Below are positions 24,470 to 62,479 of a stretch of 64,000 nt of DNA, one piece after another. Every line of letters begins with the position of its first letter. Position 1 is the stretch's first letter. Both the position numbers and the translations under genes were made by a program. Source of the stretch: Prevotella sp. (GTDB taxonomy: Bacteria > Bacteroidota > Bacteroidia > Bacteroidales > Bacteroidaceae); contig JAJPYN010000019.1 of assembly GCA_021204905.1 (NCBI GenBank), forward strand, positions 124,001 to 188,000. The letters run 5' to 3'. The notes below the pieces were generated by a model, which worked only from the letters and a program-made list of their open reading frames with translations, was not told the DNA's origin and did not search any database.

Positions 24470-24551
24470 AACTAATCCTTCTGCAAATTAAAACCTTTGA
24501 AACGAACTAAATATTAAACCCTTTGAAACGAACCGGACTTTTATCCTCGAG

Positions 24552-24592
24552 TTAGTTGCCGCTTCGCGAAGCAGGCCCGTAGTAGCAACTAA
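24552..24592. repeat. Copy of the dispersed TTAGTTGCTACT element, inverted-repeat form
   Basis: TTAGTTGC (24552-24559) ... GCTTCGCGAAGC palindrome (24561-24572) ... AGTAGCAACTAAG; GCAACTAA at 24585-24592 is the exact reverse complement of the left arm. Confidence 0.85.
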
Positions 24593-24620
24593 GACCTTCT
24601 TTCAAATTTAAAAAAGTCGG

Positions 24621-24720
24621 ACCTTAATAATCAGTATTAAATTCGTTCGAACCTTAATAATCAACTTCAAATTAGTTCATACCTTAATAATTTAAATCAT
24701 TTCAAACCTTGATAATCCTC
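24621..24720. repeat. 30/30/25 bp tandem repeat ending on the TTG start of the downstream symporter
   Basis: ACCTTAATAATC at 24621, 24651 and 24681 (last copy ends ..AATTT); ACCTTGATAATC at 24706, where TTG 24709-24711 is the start codon. Confidence 0.92.
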
Positions 24721-27576: not shown

Positions 27577-27636
27577 TCGGAAGATTTTTTGTTTGGGGTC
27601 CGGGCCGGCTGCCTTTTGCGCGAGCGGAGTTTGCGA

Positions 27637-27720
27637 TTAAAAAAAGTTTATCTTAGTTGCTACTGTAATCCGACTCAATTGTGCGGCACGAGCGCAGCCT
27701 TGGTTGTCGCCTGCGTTTAA
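27637..27720. repeat. Copy of the dispersed TTAGTTGCTACT element
   Basis: AAAAAAAGTTTATCTTAGTTGCTACTGTAATCCGACTCAATTGTGCGGCACGAGCGCAGCCTTGGTTGTC, near-identical to 53471-53542. Confidence 0.93.
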
Positions 27721-27743
27721 AATTTCGTCGGTTTCTTTTGGCA

Positions 27744-31706: not shown

Positions 31707-33518
31707 ATGAAACGTTTTTCTTTATCCCTCGCCTTTGTGCTTCTCGCGGCGGTTATGGTGCGCGCCGTGCCCGCAAAGAAGGGCGTGAGCAGGACGGCGG
31801 AGCTGGCCGGCGGGGAGGCGGTGCTGACCCTTTGCGGCGACGAGTATGCGCATTGGTGGGAGGACGAACAGGGCAACGCATACTTTGTGAATAAAAATGC
31901 AGCCAAGCCTGTCGCTTCGGCGGAACTGGCGCGCGTGAAAAGTGCAGGGCGGCAGCGTATGGCGGCGCAAAATGCAAGGCGGCAAAAGCGGTTGGCGGCA
32001 TTTCGCGCGGCAAACATCAAAGAACAAACAAGCATTAGGCAAACAACTAATTCGAGCGGCTTCGGGCAATCGACAACGATAAGCCGCGGCAGGCAATTGA
32101 CAACGACGGAGCAAGCGTATTCGGGTACGAAGCGCGGCCTTGTGATTTTGGTTAATTTCAACGATTTGGCGATGGCGGACTCTGCGGCGCAGGACGCTTT
32201 CAACCGGATGTTCAACGAGGCGGGCTATTCGGAGAACAGGCATATCGGCAGCGTGGCGGACTATTTTTCCGACCAGAGTTACGGGCAGTTTGACATCGCT
32301 TTCGACGTTGCCGGACCCGTTACTATGTCGCAGGACTATGCTTATTACGGGCAGAACGACCGCTACGGCGACGACTTGTATCCTTGCACGATGGTGGCTG
32401 AGGCGTGCCGGCTTGTTGACGACGATGTCGATTTTTCGAATTATGACTGGGACGGCGACGGCGAAGTGGAGCAGGTATTTATCGTTTATGCGGGTTACGG
32501 CGAGAATGCCGGTGCGTCGGCGTCGACTATCTGGCCGCACGAATGGACGCTCAGCGAGGGTTATGATTACGACGACGGCGATGGGGCGTTGACGCTCGAT
32601 GGTGTTACGATTGACACGTATGCCGTAACGTGCGAGTTGGCCGGAACAACAGGGTCGACGCTTGCGGGCATCGGCGTGGCATGCCATGAGTTTTCGCATT
32701 GCCTCGGTTTCCCGGACTTCTACGACACGTCCTACTCCGGCGGATGGGGCATGCAGGCGTGGGATCTGCTCGACAGCGGCAGCTACAACGGACCGTATTC
32801 CAATGGCGAGGTGCCGGCGGGATACACCGCTTACGAGCGTTGGGCGGCGGGTTGGCTTGAGCCTGTTGCGCTTGCAAGCGAGATGAATGTTGAGGCGATG
32901 GAGCCTTTGAACGACGCGCCCGAGGCGTATGTTTTGTATAACGCCAACGATTCCGACGAGTTTTATTTGCTTGAAAACCGCCGCGCTGACAGGTGGTTCG
33001 CCTTTGTGCAAAGCTATTCCGCGCCGTCGGGACTGCTCGTGCTCCACGTTGACTACGATGCCGACGCGTGGGAAGAGAACACGCCGAACGACGATGCCGA
33101 CCATCAGCGGATGACAATCATACAAGCGAACAACGAGAAAGGCACTTATCGCTGGTCGAGTTACTCCATCACGCGCGACCAATACGCGGGACATCCCTAT
33201 CCTTATGCCGACAACGACTCGCTCACGCGTTTCTCCACGCCCGCCGCAACACTCTACAACACCAACACCGACGGCACGAATTATATGTCGCCCGGCATCT
33301 ACGACATCACGCTGAACGAGGACGGTACGATAGCTTTCAACTGCGGTAACGCCGAGCAGGACGACGAGACAGACGGCATTAGCAACGTCCCCGCCGGCGA
33401 AGAAGCGACGGCAGCCAAGCGCATTTTCAGCCTTTCGGGCTATTATCTCGGCACCGACCTTTCGCCCCTGCCCGCCGGCATTTACATAAGAAACAACCGA
33501 AAGATAATCCGACAATGA
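31707..33518 (+). CDS. M6 family metalloprotease (immune inhibitor A-like), secreted, CTD tail
   Basis: GIGVACHEFSHCLGFPDFYD (HExxHxxGxPD); propeptide region; C-terminus IFSLSGYYLGTDLSPLPAGIYIRNNRKIIRQ. Confidence 0.92.
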   Translation: MKRFSLSLAFVLLAAVMVRAVPAKKGVSRTAELAGGEAVLTLCGDEYAHWWEDEQGNAYFVNKNAAKPVASAELARVKSAGRQRMAAQNARRQKRLAAFRAANIKEQTSIRQTTNSSGFGQSTTISRGRQLTTTEQAYSGTKRGLVILVNFNDLAMADSAAQDAFNRMFNEAGYSENRHIGSVADYFSDQSYGQFDIAFDVAGPVTMSQDYAYYGQNDRYGDDLYPCTMVAEACRLVDDDVDFSNYDWDGDGEVEQVFIVYAGYGENAGASASTIWPHEWTLSEGYDYDDGDGALTLDGVTIDTYAVTCELAGTTGSTLAGIGVACHEFSHCLGFPDFYDTSYSGGWGMQAWDLLDSGSYNGPYSNGEVPAGYTAYERWAAGWLEPVALASEMNVEAMEPLNDAPEAYVLYNANDSDEFYLLENRRADRWFAFVQSYSAPSGLLVLHVDYDADAWEENTPNDDADHQRMTIIQANNEKGTYRWSSYSITRDQYAGHPYPYADNDSLTRFSTPAATLYNTNTDGTNYMSPGIYDITLNEDGTIAFNCGNAEQDDETDGISNVPAGEEATAAKRIFSLSGYYLGTDLSPLPAGIYIRNNRKIIRQ

Positions 33519-50652: not shown

Positions 50653-50804
50653 AGATTTTATTGATTTTGTTATTTGTTAATACTTACCGAGCTGCGAATT
50701 TATCTGTTTTCGGGCAATTATCAAAGAAAAGCGGCGAAAAAGGCTGCTCACCCGCGGGGAATAACTATTTTTGCGCGGCGGTTAAAACCCTCAAAACCCT
50801 TCTC

Positions 50805-51908
50805 GTGGCAGGCCTCTACGCACATATCCCGTTTTGCACCTCGCGCTGCATCTATTGCGCCTTCTGCTCGTCGACAAAGCTTAATCTGCGCAAAAAATAT
50901 GTCGATGCGCTGCTGAAAGAATATGCCTTGCGGAAAAGCTATCTCGGCGGCGAAAAAATCGAAACCATCTACCTCGGCGGAGGCACGCCAAGCGTACTAA
51001 ACACAAGCGATCTGGCGCGTTTGCTCGATGCTTTTTCAAAGGATGCCGATGCCGAAGAAATCACCGTCGAATGCAACCCCGACGACATCTCGCGCAATTT
51101 TGCGAAAGAGCTTGCGGCAATGGGCGTGAACCGCGTGTCGACGGGCATTCAGACATTCTCGCCCGAGCGGTTGCGCTTCCTTCGCCGGCGGCACACGGCG
51201 GAACAAGCAATTGCCGCGGTCGGCTTTTTGCGCGAAGCAGGCATTGAAAATATCAGTATCGACTTGATGTTCGGCTTCCCCGGACAGACTGTTAACGAAT
51301 GGCTGTGCGATGTGAAAAAGGCTGTCGAACTCGCGCCCGAACATATCTCCGCCTATTGCCTGTCCATCGAACCCGGCACGCCCTTGCACGCGATGTTAGT
51401 TCGCGGCGAATTAAACGAAGCAGACGATGAATCTTGCCGCGAGATGTACTATTTGCTTAGCGACATAGTAGCAACTAAGACCTTCGAACACTACGAAATC
51501 AGTAACTTCTGCCGGCCGGGCTTCCGCGCCAAGCACAACAGCGGTTACTGGCACGGCGCGCGCTACCTCGGGCTCGGCGCTGCGGCACATTCCTACGACG
51601 GCCGCTCGCGCCAATGGAACACGAGCAACATTGAGGCTTACATCGACAGCATCGAGCGCGGACTATTGCCTTTCGAGCGCGAAGTATTATCCGCCGACGA
51701 GCGTTATAACGATCTGATTACCACCGCTTTACGCACCTCCGACGGCATCGCCCTCGACAATGATTTTTACGGCCGGGATTACCTCCTTTCGCAAGCCCGA
51801 CCATTGCTTGCCCGCGGCCTGCTCGAAGTAATCGACAATCGATTGCGCCTGACGCGCGAAGCCCTCTTCACTTCCGACAGCGTCCTCGCCGAACTGGTTA
51901 AGGTGTGA
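50805..51908 (+). CDS. hemW: Radical SAM protein HemW (coproporphyrinogen III oxidase-like)
   Basis: GLYAHIPFCTSRCIYCAFCS; YLGGGTPSVL; HYEISNFCRPGF; GTG start inferred after TATTTTTG (50766-50773). Confidence 0.92.
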   Translation: MAGLYAHIPFCTSRCIYCAFCSSTKLNLRKKYVDALLKEYALRKSYLGGEKIETIYLGGGTPSVLNTSDLARLLDAFSKDADAEEITVECNPDDISRNFAKELAAMGVNRVSTGIQTFSPERLRFLRRRHTAEQAIAAVGFLREAGIENISIDLMFGFPGQTVNEWLCDVKKAVELAPEHISAYCLSIEPGTPLHAMLVRGELNEADDESCREMYYLLSDIVATKTFEHYEISNFCRPGFRAKHNSGYWHGARYLGLGAAAHSYDGRSRQWNTSNIEAYIDSIERGLLPFEREVLSADERYNDLITTALRTSDGIALDNDFYGRDYLLSQARPLLARGLLEVIDNRLRLTREALFTSDSVLAELVKV

Positions 51909-53441: not shown

Positions 53442-53470
53442 ACACATTGAACCGACTTTCGCGAAGAAAG

Positions 53471-53545
53471 AAGAAAAAAGTTTATCTTAGTTGCTACTGT
53501 AATGCGGCTCAGTTGTGCGGCGAGAGTATCAGCCTTAGTTGTCCG
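53471..53545. repeat. Copy of the dispersed TTAGTTGCTACT element
   Basis: AAGAAAAAAGTTTATCTTAGTTGCTACTGTAATGCGGCTCAGTTGTGCGGCGAGAGTATCAGCCTTAGTTGTCCGG. Confidence 0.93.
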
Positions 53546-53635
53546 GTTCGTTTCAACTTCATTCGGTTCGTTTCAACTTCATTTCAATTTCATTTCAACT
53601 TCAATTCAACTTCATTTCAACTTCAATTCATTTTT
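53542..53635. repeat. Simple tandem array of GTTCGTTTCAACTTCA / TTTCAACTTCAA units
   Basis: CGGTTCGTTTCAACTTCATT CGGTTCGTTTCAACTTCATTTCAATTTCATTTCAACTTCAATTCAACTTCATTTCAACTTCAATTC. Confidence 0.93.
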
Positions 53636-53742
53636 TTGACAACCCAAAGGTGTTAACGGCACTTTGAAAAAAGTTTAACGTCGGGCTTCGCGCAGTTTAT
53701 ATTCCGCCGATTTTTCTTATTTTTGCCGCAAACAACAACGAA

Positions 53743-54546
53743 ATGTTCTCTTTCATCTCTTTCGGCAGCGGCAGCAGCGGCAATTGCTACTACCTTTTCA
53801 ACGAGCAGGGCGGGCTGTTCATCGACGCGGGCATGAGCCTCAAAGCTGTCAAGAAGCATTCCGCGGCGGCGAACATCAACCTCTCTGCGGCGCGGTTTAT
53901 CCTTGTTACTCACGACCACGCCGACCACGTGAAATATGTCGGTCAGCTGAGCAATGTGTTCGGGCTGCCGGTGTACGCCACGCCGACTGTTCACGAGCAC
54001 ATCGACAAGAACTATGTGGTGAAGCAAAAGGTGGACCGTCAGCGGCGGATGAACATCACTACGGGCGAGCCTTTCGAGTTGCTCGGCATGCGCATTAACA
54101 CCGTCATCGTGCCGCACGACAGCAGCGAGAATATCGGCTATAAGATTGAATATGAGGGCGTTACGTTTGTCCTTCTCACCGACATCGGGCATGTTACGCC
54201 GGAGATGGAGAGGCTCATCGGCGAGGCTAATTATCTCGTCATCGAGGCCAATCACGAGGTGGAGAAGCTCAAGCAAGGGCGCTATCCCGAGATGCTCAAA
54301 CGGCGCATCCTCTCCGATGTGGGCCACCTGAGCAACCACGACTGCGGGCAGACCATCGCGCGGTGCGGTACGCCGAAGTTGAAGCACGTGTGGCTGTGCC
54401 ATCTGAGTTACGACAACAACGACCCGGAGCTGGCGCGCTACACCGTTGAGGGCGTGCTGCGCGAATACGGCATTGCGCCGGGCAAGGACTTCGTACTCGA
54501 CATTCTCAAACGCCGTTCGCCCAGCGCGGTTACGCTGATGGATTAG
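53743..54546 (+). CDS. MBL-fold metallo-hydrolase (YycJ/WalJ-like)
   Basis: SFISFGSGSSGNCYYLFNEQGGLFIDAGMS; VTHDHADHVKYV; CHLSYDNND. Confidence 0.93.
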   Translation: MFSFISFGSGSSGNCYYLFNEQGGLFIDAGMSLKAVKKHSAAANINLSAARFILVTHDHADHVKYVGQLSNVFGLPVYATPTVHEHIDKNYVVKQKVDRQRRMNITTGEPFELLGMRINTVIVPHDSSENIGYKIEYEGVTFVLLTDIGHVTPEMERLIGEANYLVIEANHEVEKLKQGRYPEMLKRRILSDVGHLSNHDCGQTIARCGTPKLKHVWLCHLSYDNNDPELARYTVEGVLREYGIAPGKDFVLDILKRRSPSAVTLMD

Positions 54547-54570
54547 TAGCTACTAAGATAAACTTTTTTC
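54543..54570. repeat. Short copy of the dispersed element overlapping a stop codon
   Basis: TTAGTAGCTACTAA (14-nt perfect palindrome) followed by GATAAACTTTTTTC. Confidence 0.85.
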
Positions 54571-54592
54571 GAAAAAACACTCGGCGACTACG

Positions 54593-55453: not shown

Positions 55454-55972
55454 ATGGACAACAAAAACGAGCTTTTTCCTATTGTCGACGCCGAGGGCAC
55501 CGTTGTGGGCAGCATAACGCGCGGCGAGGCTCACGGCGGCGGCAAGGCGCTTCACCCCGTGGTGCATCTTCACGTTTTCAACAGTCGCGGCGAGCTGTTT
55601 TTGCAGAAGCGTCCGGCGTGGAAAGATGTGCAGCCCGGCAAGTGGGACACGGCCTGCGGAGGGCATGTCGACTATGGCGAGACGGCGGAAGAGGCGTTGC
55701 TGCGCGAGGCTGTCGAGGAGCTTGGCATCAGCGGGTTCCGCGCGCGGTTTCTCGGCAAATATGTTTACGAAAGCGCGAACGAGAAGGAGCTTGTTTACGT
55801 CAACGCCACCCTCTTCGACGGACCTGTGAAGCCTGACCCTGACGAGCTCGACGGCGGCCGCTTTTGGACTAAGGACGAGATTGCCGCGGCCATCGGCACA
55901 AACATCCTCACGCCTAATTTCGAGAGCGAGTACGCGCGGTTTTTCGGGTCAGGCAACGGGCAACTGAGTTGA
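55454..55972 (+). CDS. NUDIX hydrolase
   Basis: GHVDYGETAEEALLREAVEELGI (Nudix box). Confidence 0.94.
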   Translation: MDNKNELFPIVDAEGTVVGSITRGEAHGGGKALHPVVHLHVFNSRGELFLQKRPAWKDVQPGKWDTACGGHVDYGETAEEALLREAVEELGISGFRARFLGKYVYESANEKELVYVNATLFDGPVKPDPDELDGGRFWTKDEIAAAIGTNILTPNFESEYARFFGSGNGQLS

Positions 55973-56040
55973 GAGGCCGGCAGCCCGGGGCAATTGACAA
56001 CTATGGGACTAACAAAAACGAGCCACACCGGAGAATTTGG

Positions 56041-56195
56041 TATGGTTCGTTTCGTTTCAATTCGATTCGTTTCGTTTCAATTCGATTCGTTTCGATTAAC
56101 CTTTCGTTTCAATTCGATTAACGTTTCGTTTCGGTTAAACTTTCGTTTCAATTCGATTAACGTTTCGTTTCGGTTAACCTTTCGTTTAAATTCCT
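56041..56195. repeat. Tandem array of GTTTCGTTTCAATTCGATT units with a 39-bp higher-order period
   Basis: CTTTCGTTTCAATTCGATTAACGTTTCGTTTCGGTTAA[A/C] at 56101-56139 and 56140-56178; shorter GTTTCGTTTCAATTCGATTC units upstream. Confidence 0.95.
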
Positions 56196-56207
56196 TTTGA
56201 AAAGGAG

Positions 56208-61381: not shown

Positions 61382-61439
61382 ACCTTGAAAATTATTTAGT
61401 ACCCGAAACCAATCCGCACTGAAACCCTGACCCCGCTGC

Positions 61440-61510
61440 GTCGGGTTATAGTAGCTAATCGCGAAGCGCTGTCGAAGTGCAACGGAGAGAGAACTAAGAT
61501 AAACTTGCTT
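61440..61510. repeat. Diverged copy of the dispersed element with GCGAAGCGC hairpin-like core
   Basis: ATAGTAGCTAATCGCGAAGCGCTGTCGAAGTGCAACGGAGAGAGAACTAAGATAAACTTG. Confidence 0.75.
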
Positions 61511-61534
61511 CCGAAATTAATTCGCTCCTGAAAA

Positions 61535-62479
61535 TTATTTCACCAGCCGCAACCACTTCTTGCAATCGAACTTCGCCTCGGCGCGCCGCTCCACGTCTTT
61601 CGGGAGCTTTGAGAAGAAGTTGATGCCCGTGCGCGCCTCAACGCTGTCCACCGTTACGGCATAGCTCGCGACGGGCCGGTTGCTCTCGTCGTTGTTCATT
61701 ATGAAGCCAATCGCTTCGGCGCTATTGTCGCCCGTCCACCGCAGGACGACCTTAAAAAACTGCTTCGGCACCATCACCTTGTTTTTGCCGATGGTCTTGT
61801 AGGTCTCGCCCTTCTCGATGATCGGGCCGCAAACGATGTAGATGCTGTCGTACGCCACCGCCCACTTGCGGCACAGCGTCTCGAGCTCTTCCCAGTCGCC
61901 GGCGTTGAGCGTGTGGGTCTGCGGGCACATATTGCTGAAGAGGAAGCACTGGTTCATCGCCTCGCGCGAGTACTTGCAGTCGGCCGAAGGGCATTGGTGG
62001 CCGCGGTCGTAGCCGGAGCCGCGGTAGTCGCTGTCGAGCGCGATGGGCCCTTTCTTTATTGAGAAGTCAGGCTGGAAATCATTGGCACGTTTCTCCGTAC
62101 CTTGCGTCCGCTCTTTCGTGAGCACCCACGCCACCCAGTTGGGCACGCGCCGCTGCTTGTTGTACGACAGGGTGAAGCCTTCGTGAATGACAATCTCCTC
62201 GTCGCGGTCGGTGAGGTATGCGGGGATCTCGAGCCCTTTGGCTCGCACCTGCCCTCGCGAAGTTTTTTCCGGCTTTATCTTAATTGCTACTGCAGTCCCT
62301 TCGCCGCCCTGCGCCGCGCCATCCTCAGTTGTAAGTGTTCGGTTCGTTTCAACATTAGTCGAATTCGTTTCAACCTTAGCCTCTTCCTTACGGCTGTTGG
62401 CATACGACATGGCGACGGCAATGATGATTATCACAATCCAAAGGACTGCCTTGCCGCGCGGCGTGTTCTTCTTTTTCAT
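61535..62479 (-). CDS. DNA/RNA non-specific endonuclease, membrane-anchored or secreted
   Basis: N-terminal TM VLWIVIIIIAVAMSYA; YDRGHQCPSADCKYSREAMNQCFLFSNMCPQTHTLNAGDWEELE (DRGH motif). Confidence 0.94.
   Translation of the reverse strand: MKKKNTPRGKAVLWIVIIIIAVAMSYANSRKEEAKVETNSTNVETNRTLTTEDGAAQGGEGTAVAIKIKPEKTSRGQVRAKGLEIPAYLTDRDEEIVIHEGFTLSYNKQRRVPNWVAWVLTKERTQGTEKRANDFQPDFSIKKGPIALDSDYRGSGYDRGHQCPSADCKYSREAMNQCFLFSNMCPQTHTLNAGDWEELETLCRKWAVAYDSIYIVCGPIIEKGETYKTIGKNKVMVPKQFFKVVLRWTGDNSAEAIGFIMNNDESNRPVASYAVTVDSVEARTGINFFSKLPKDVERRAEAKFDCKKWLRLVK
62266..62376. repeat. Copy of the dispersed element plus GTTCGTTTCAAC repeats inside the endonuclease CDS
   Basis: GGCTTTATCTTAATTGCTACTGCAGTCCC...CTCAGTTGTAAGTGTTCGGTTCGTTTCAACATTAGTCGAATTCGTTTCAACCTTAG. 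Confidence 0.85.

Follow-up and report, generated by a model that had tools for sequence, protein, structure and literature searches.

How a dispersed piece of DNA came to encode part of a nuclease, and what that piece of DNA is, are the questions raised by the coding sequence (CDS) at 61535..62479 (−) in the window, by which we mean the whole 64-kb stretch of Prevotella DNA analysed. The CDS encodes a 314-residue DNA/RNA non-specific endonuclease (Endonuclease_NS, E = 4e-60, residues 85–294) with an N-terminal hydrophobic segment. An earlier note proposed that the linker of this protein is encoded by an element also found at 53470–53558, and that the element had been inserted in frame at a tolerant site, in the manner of the Rickettsia palindromic elements (RPEs). 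The match between the two sequences is borne out by an exact 18-mer that is absent from shuffled sequences. The two copies named in that note are a small part of a family of about 148, and several members of the family lie in conserved genes that can be aligned with orthologs residue by residue.

The element-encoded linker of the endonuclease

The nuclease-linker copy occupies 62263..62376 (+), the gene being read from the reverse strand, and scores 55.5 bits over 62263–62355 with a family model that has this copy among its 79 training rows. Its core arm lies at 62274–62291 (+). In the window, the 18-mer core TTTATCTTARTTGCTACT is found without mismatch at 27647, 53481 and 62274 (+) and with a single mismatch at 54545 (−), and it has 0 matches in shuffles. 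The D arm GGTTCGTTTCAAC (62341–62353, +) is followed by a duplicated D arm AATTCGTTTCAAC (62362–62374, +), shifted by 21 nt. Read on the reverse strand, GGTTCGTTTCAAC and its shifted copy give VETNRT and VETNSTN, so that the 21-nt duplication of GTTCGTTTCAAC described earlier is seen as stated. This copy has a bipartite (two-arm) score of 50.8, the score having been trained on intergenic copies alone, and 10 Mb of simulated DNA reached no more than 9.8.

The nuclease gene was compared with its orthologs, in all of which the linker is hypervariable, unrelated, low-complexity sequence. The distance from the N-terminus to the aligned domain is 32–112 residues in the orthologs, one fused outlier apart, and 72–93 residues in the protein itself, whose linker is somewhat longer than in most orthologs. 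The proposal of an insertion implied an indel with boundaries at about 62266 and 62376; none is definable in the ortholog alignment, because the ortholog linkers vary freely in length and sequence. As the length of the linker overlaps those of orthologs and there is no indel with fixed boundaries, the nuclease case fits insertion and substitution alike.

Architecture of the element

Alignment of the copies reveals a directional, multi-block element of about 105 bp, comprising a left block, a core, a B block, a C block and a D arm. Specifically, the left block GCGAGCGGAGTTT (also given as GCGAGCGGAGTTTG) is followed 31–32 nt downstream by the core ATCTTAGTYGCTACT, while the CGTTT of the D arm GTCGSSTWCGTTTCAA begins 62–66 nt past the core. 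The B block, around CGGCTCA..TGCGG, and the C block, around CAGCCTTAGTTG, are both variable. Each block is drawn from a few alternative words, which are mixed among copies. The two arms shared by coding copies are the core TCTTAGTTGCTACT and, about 63 nt on, CGTTTCAA.

Searches of the whole genome with the core, allowing up to two mismatches, give 92 matches and 0 for the reversed control, and D-arm searches give 122 matches versus 3 for the reversed control. Further copies with other cores (GGGGCAATTGACAACTATG, GGGGCTGGTTTGAACTATG and GATTAGTAGTTGCTACT) were reached via the D-arm searches. Cores are almost never present without the D arm, and perfect copies of the 16-nt core outnumber singly mismatched 16-mers (50 versus 39). 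Single copies start with GCGAGCGG and finish with CGTTTCAAC. They carry no terminal inverted repeats, the core being present at both ends only in a few opposed, overlapping pairs, and the only hairpin found in the single element is one of 4 bp. In addition, RNAalifold and mutual information, applied to 79–97 copies, reveal no covarying pairs, only short-range correlations between blocks.

Copies in the window and across the genome

The genome searched (G000) is a single metagenome-assembled Prevotella genome of 1.96 Mb in 19 contigs, 93% complete, and statements about the whole genome are based on searches and on stretches fetched from it. The family model finds at least about 148 copies genome-wide, or one per 13 kb, a lower bound because 150 candidates per genome were scored. 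The model is built on sequence only. Its E-values were obtained with a shortened calibration, and congener DNA served as the check on them.

Seven copies lie in the window by the family model. Apart from the nuclease-linker copy, three are intergenic: 24522..24621 (−, 38.7 bits); 27616..27723 (+, 78.3 bits), which has all blocks including the left block GCGAGCGGAGTTTG; and 53470..53558 (+, 72.5 bits), the intergenic copy of the earlier note, followed by a D-arm-like repeat tail to about 53630. The others are a copy inside hemW (51411..51480, −, 27.3 bits), a copy with core AGTAGCTACT overlapping the 3′ end of CDS 53743–54546 (54492..54584, −, 32.6 bits), and a copy (61399..61529, −, 18.1 bits) in which the short insert CTCTCTCCGTTGCACTTCGACAGCGCTTCGCGATTA separates the two parts of the core, ATCTTAGTT and GCTACT. 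At 55960..56200 (+) there is a further, probable copy, which has GGGGCAATTGACAACTATG as its alternative core and carries a long D-arm repeat tail. A weak candidate at 32060–32175 (+), within CDS 31707–33518, has the alternative core CAATTGACAACGACGG, coding for QLTTTEQ, and, where the conserved VILVNFND is encoded, a D-like GGTTAATTTCAACG.

By the approximate gene calls of a simple program based on codon scores, 121 of the 148 copies across the genome are intergenic and 27 lie inside coding sequences; coding sequence makes up about 91% of the window. The genes flanking the intergenic copies are tandem in 54 cases, convergent in 47 and divergent in 20. Both strands are used equally (77 + and 71 −), and copies between tandem genes show no preferred direction (28/26). 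In a sample centred on copies, intergenic spaces that hold a copy are longer than those that do not, with medians of 212 versus 80 nt between convergent genes and 281 versus 33 nt between tandem genes. Copies are not spaced significantly more evenly than at random, and their density is uneven between contigs (heterogeneity p = 0.012). Contigs C13 (169 kb) and C19 (104 kb) have densities four- to fivefold below those of C7, C9 and C6.

Some opposed copies form close pairs. At three related loci (C9:32034–32147, C9:43623–43736 and C7:146311–146424), a stretch of about 130 bp holds two overlapping opposite-strand copies, both with a core and a D-like arm of their own. Allele-like non-consensus words with sharp ends are common to groups of intergenic copies, and three intergenic copies at C6:49–55 kb share non-consensus words. 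The 36-nt insert CTCTCTCCGTTGCACTTCGACAGCGCTTCGCGATTA, identical in sequence, interrupts the core at one and the same position in the window copy at 61399–61529 (−) and in the copy at C11:22381–22526, the flanks of the two being unrelated. A second dispersed repeat, GGCTGCACTCGGCAAAACAAGTAAACTTGATTGCTCTCGTTTGCACGA, a related longer insert, splits the cores at C2:22273–22456 and C4:40680–40857; it also occurs elsewhere in the genome, including near the Y1 transposase gene. Tandem arrays of 20–22-nt core units or 11–22-nt D-arm units run off element copies (C7:4843–5004; window 53559–53640 and 56048–56200), as if the ends of the copies promoted local duplication. Furthermore, a short inverted repeat, GCGTGCCGATAGGTACGCGAC, possibly a REP family, recurs near the sole IS200-like/RAYT gene (C17:99152) and downstream of several element copies. 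A RAYT/REP origin of the element itself was rejected, the single Y1_Tnp gene having no copy nearby.

Coding copies in conserved genes

About 27 copies are read in frame in unrelated genes, in at least four frames and on both strands, with 20 of the 27 antisense to their gene. Element-derived peptides (VETN.., VATK[IT], VPDxD and ILVAT) recur in about 27 genes, as had been anticipated for the first two. The coding copies contribute mostly to C-terminal tails, N-terminal extensions, signal peptides and linkers, in genes that include RplQ (tail), FtsE (tail), RluD, LigA, DnaX, IF2, RsmH and GyrA/ParC-like; these and all other gene names except that of the nuclease were read from the sequence and from ortholog or PDB matches. 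The earlier idea that the element occupies tolerant sites therefore holds for most coding copies and fails for those within folded domains.

Four genes provide evidence on how such copies arose. The HemW (coproporphyrinogen III oxidase-like) CDS at 50661..51908 (+), whose start codon is uncertain, contains its copy at 51411–51480 (−) in a conserved domain, where it encodes the peptide LNEADDESCREMYYLLSDIVATKT and is ungapped in 10 of 10 orthologs. The element region of CysK is ungapped in 8 of 8 orthologs, and likewise against solved cysteine synthases (PDB chains). A membrane protein (C1:65795) is ungapped versus its closest ortholog, with a 3-residue gap in a distant one, and an alpha-2-macroglobulin-like (A2M-like) protein (C7:214601) shows 0–3 residues of gap versus its orthologs. 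The bipartite scores of these copies are 60.6 bits for A2M, 59.0 for the membrane protein, 41.5 for HemW and 40.4 for CysK, compared with the simulated-DNA maximum given above and −3.7 in 775 kb of congener DNA.

In HemW, CysK and A2M, ordinary host residues are kept between the arms, and conserved residues are replaced within them. Specifically, a G found in 10/10 orthologs is T in the HemW arm, the V of VEP (8/8 orthologs) is T in the CysK arm, and the P of LP (9/9 orthologs) is V in the A2M arm. With the alignment ungapped, the host middle kept and the arm residues overwritten, the copies are therefore not an inserted 105-bp piece. Judged from these alignments, the element sites in HemW, CysK, the A2M-like protein and the membrane protein arose by substitution, the evidence covering this limited number of genes. 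The in-frame insertion proposed earlier is contradicted in them, and the RPE-like nature of the element, which as a single unit is non-palindromic and without covarying pairs, is not supported.

Two further candidates were left out of this set. The GH95 copy (C10:81070) scores 30 bits by the model and −0.8 by the independent two-arm score. The GH97 copy (C10:15829), with an alternative core, is ungapped versus PDB chains; it is uncounted, as its D arm falls outside the aligned part.

Restriction to one species among the genomes sampled

The core is absent from 23 congeners and has one single-mismatch match only among 16 genomes of the same order. At E ≤ 0.001, the family model matches 1 of 299 genus genomes, the window's own, and 0 of the 298 others, in a run with stricter filters. 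The best family-model score in seven congener genomes is 16.1 bits. Among named relatives, the nearest one found is a Prevotella MAG (L099/G076), which contains no copies. We rejected it as a near sister: it shares 84% identity in the nuclease, but its other genes are only about 46–67% identical, so that the age of the element family is not tightly bounded. No comparably over-represented 13-mer was found in 400 kb of the relative G004. Phage and plasmid collections give no match to the element, and viral collections only core-length matches of 17–22 bits in AT-rich viral contigs. The genome with the element encodes a ComEC homolog, as do congeners without the signal.

A possible recognition signal spread by molecular drive

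Our best explanation, which we hold tentatively, is that the element acts as a long DNA recognition signal, built of several blocks and spread by molecular drive, in the manner of uptake sequences; the uptake-like function is one that we infer from the sequence evidence. A protein preferring DNA with both arms, most simply part of the DNA-uptake or recombination machinery, would cause alleles carrying the signal to replace alleles without it. The signal would build up wherever it is tolerated, mostly between genes and otherwise in linkers, tails and signal peptides, and would sometimes be written by direct substitution inside folded domains. Drive by two-arm recognition would thereby work like the uptake signals of Pasteurellaceae and Neisseriaceae. 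On the same tentative footing as this whole reading, the nuclease linker would be one tolerated place for the signal, not an inserted exon, and the element would behave more like a recognition mark than a jumping element.

The uptake sequences of Haemophilus and Neisseria (USS and DUS) have a core of 9–12 bp, occur at about one copy per kb with rather even spacing, and are shared with relatives in the genus or family. To our knowledge, biased uptake with recombination is the sole well-established substitution-based writer of a genome-wide motif with such properties, and we know of no USS/DUS-like self-recognition sequence in Bacteroidota. Like USS and DUS, the element is genome-wide, species-typical and over-represented (92 matches versus 0 for the reversed control). 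Redfield et al. list as features of USS and DUS the equal use of both strands, a mostly non-coding location, an excess of perfect copies, opposed close pairs and an origin by substitution (PMC1626085). The element matches this list in copy number, ungapped coding copies, strand balance, preference for non-coding DNA with some coding copies, more perfect copies than expected versus mismatched ones, and opposed pairs. The ungapped copies parallel the gap test on coding copies by which Haemophilus USS were shown not to be insertions (PMC1626085).

The element differs from USS and DUS in being about 105 bp long in several blocks, in its density of 1 per 13 kb without significantly even spacing, in the alternative words used for each block within one genome, and in being found in 0 of 298 other genus genomes. 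Given this length, sparsity, modularity and absence from relatives, we therefore do not file it as a member of the USS/DUS class. Several observations count against drive itself: the roughly tenfold length together with the use of alternative words for the core, C block and D arm within a single genome; the low density, uneven between contigs, with spacing not significantly even; and the presence of ComEC in signal-free congeners. In addition, the near-absence of cores without a D arm argues against gradual point mutation, which should leave half-made sites, and the longer copy-bearing intergenic spaces and the shared non-consensus words suggest that part of the family arose by copying or insertion. 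Both modes, substitution and copying or insertion, may operate. It is conceivable, if doubtful, that the element represents a new class of genome-wide signal, modular and two-armed, about 100 bp long, with interchangeable words and confined to one Prevotella species, that replaces host bases, even in conserved codons, spares the sequence between its arms and is driven by recognition machinery.

Alternative explanations

A non-autonomous mobile repeat, MITE- or RPE-like, could have been copied and pasted into intergenic DNA and tolerant protein regions, with the conserved-domain copies arising by secondary gene conversion or repair; we regard this as possible but rather unlikely. It has to account for the presence of both arms, without change of length and with the host middle kept, in HemW, CysK, A2M and the membrane protein, and it has in its favour the intergenic copies, with their common allele-like words with sharp ends, their longer spaces, their tails and tandem arrays of units, the identical split core at two loci with unrelated flanks and the nearly constant association of core and D arm. 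Single copies lack terminal inverted repeats, which also sets them apart from MITEs, and show neither RNA nor hairpin structure; the 93% complete assembly yielded no long or autonomous copy, and none of the copies lies beside the single Y1 transposase locus. RPEs are palindromic insertions, whereas the element shows no insertion in conserved genes, is non-palindromic, and is read in several frames and on both strands. It resembles RPEs in its size class, its in-frame occurrence in many unrelated genes and its recurrent peptides, RPEs being dispersed elements of about 100–150 bp with these same properties (PMC10969869). The BOX, ERIC and Correia elements are likewise modular, about 100 bp long, mainly intergenic, species-restricted and near gene ends; the element is distinguished from them by single copies without terminal inverted repeats, by substitution-made coding copies and by its two-arm logic. 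A transposon flanked by two copies was rejected, since the DNA between opposed copies about 2 kb apart consists of ordinary genes (GAPDH, chorismate synthase and others).

It is improbable that the element is the target of a DNA-binding protein, whether one that organises the chromosome or another, with functional selection preserving every site. The fixed multi-block architecture with its tight spacing (left block 31–32 nt and D arm 62–66 nt from the core), the equal use of both strands and the lack of promoter association would suit such a site, but at each of some 150 redundant sites selection would need to be stronger than that on the conserved residues of HemW, CysK and A2M. Moreover, the density is uneven, the information content has no helical periodicity (10.5 bp, block-shuffle P = 0.61), and, with no site in the rest of the genus sample, only one species would have the protein–site pair.

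A transcribed RNA element or transcriptional control site, to which the fixed orientation of the blocks and the frequent location just after stop codons (median 25 nt from the core-side end to a stop codon) might point, is very improbable, given the lack of covarying pairs, an Rfam search without a match to the element, the 20 of 27 coding copies that are antisense to their gene, the excess of convergent (47) over divergent (20) intergenic regions and the lack of a common function among neighbouring genes.

Implications

On either the drive or the mobile-repeat reading, recurrent linker peptides such as VETN..VATKI can be artefacts at the DNA level, not protein motifs. A mobile repeat, if that is what the element is, would be one that imprints itself without net insertion, beyond standard insertion models. 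If the element is instead a recognition signal spread by drive, Bacteroidota would have a self-recognition DNA signal far longer than those of the two families with established signals, and a force acting at the DNA level would be strong enough to overwrite conserved residues of HemW, CysK and A2M. Such a signal would provide a handle on gene exchange in Prevotella.
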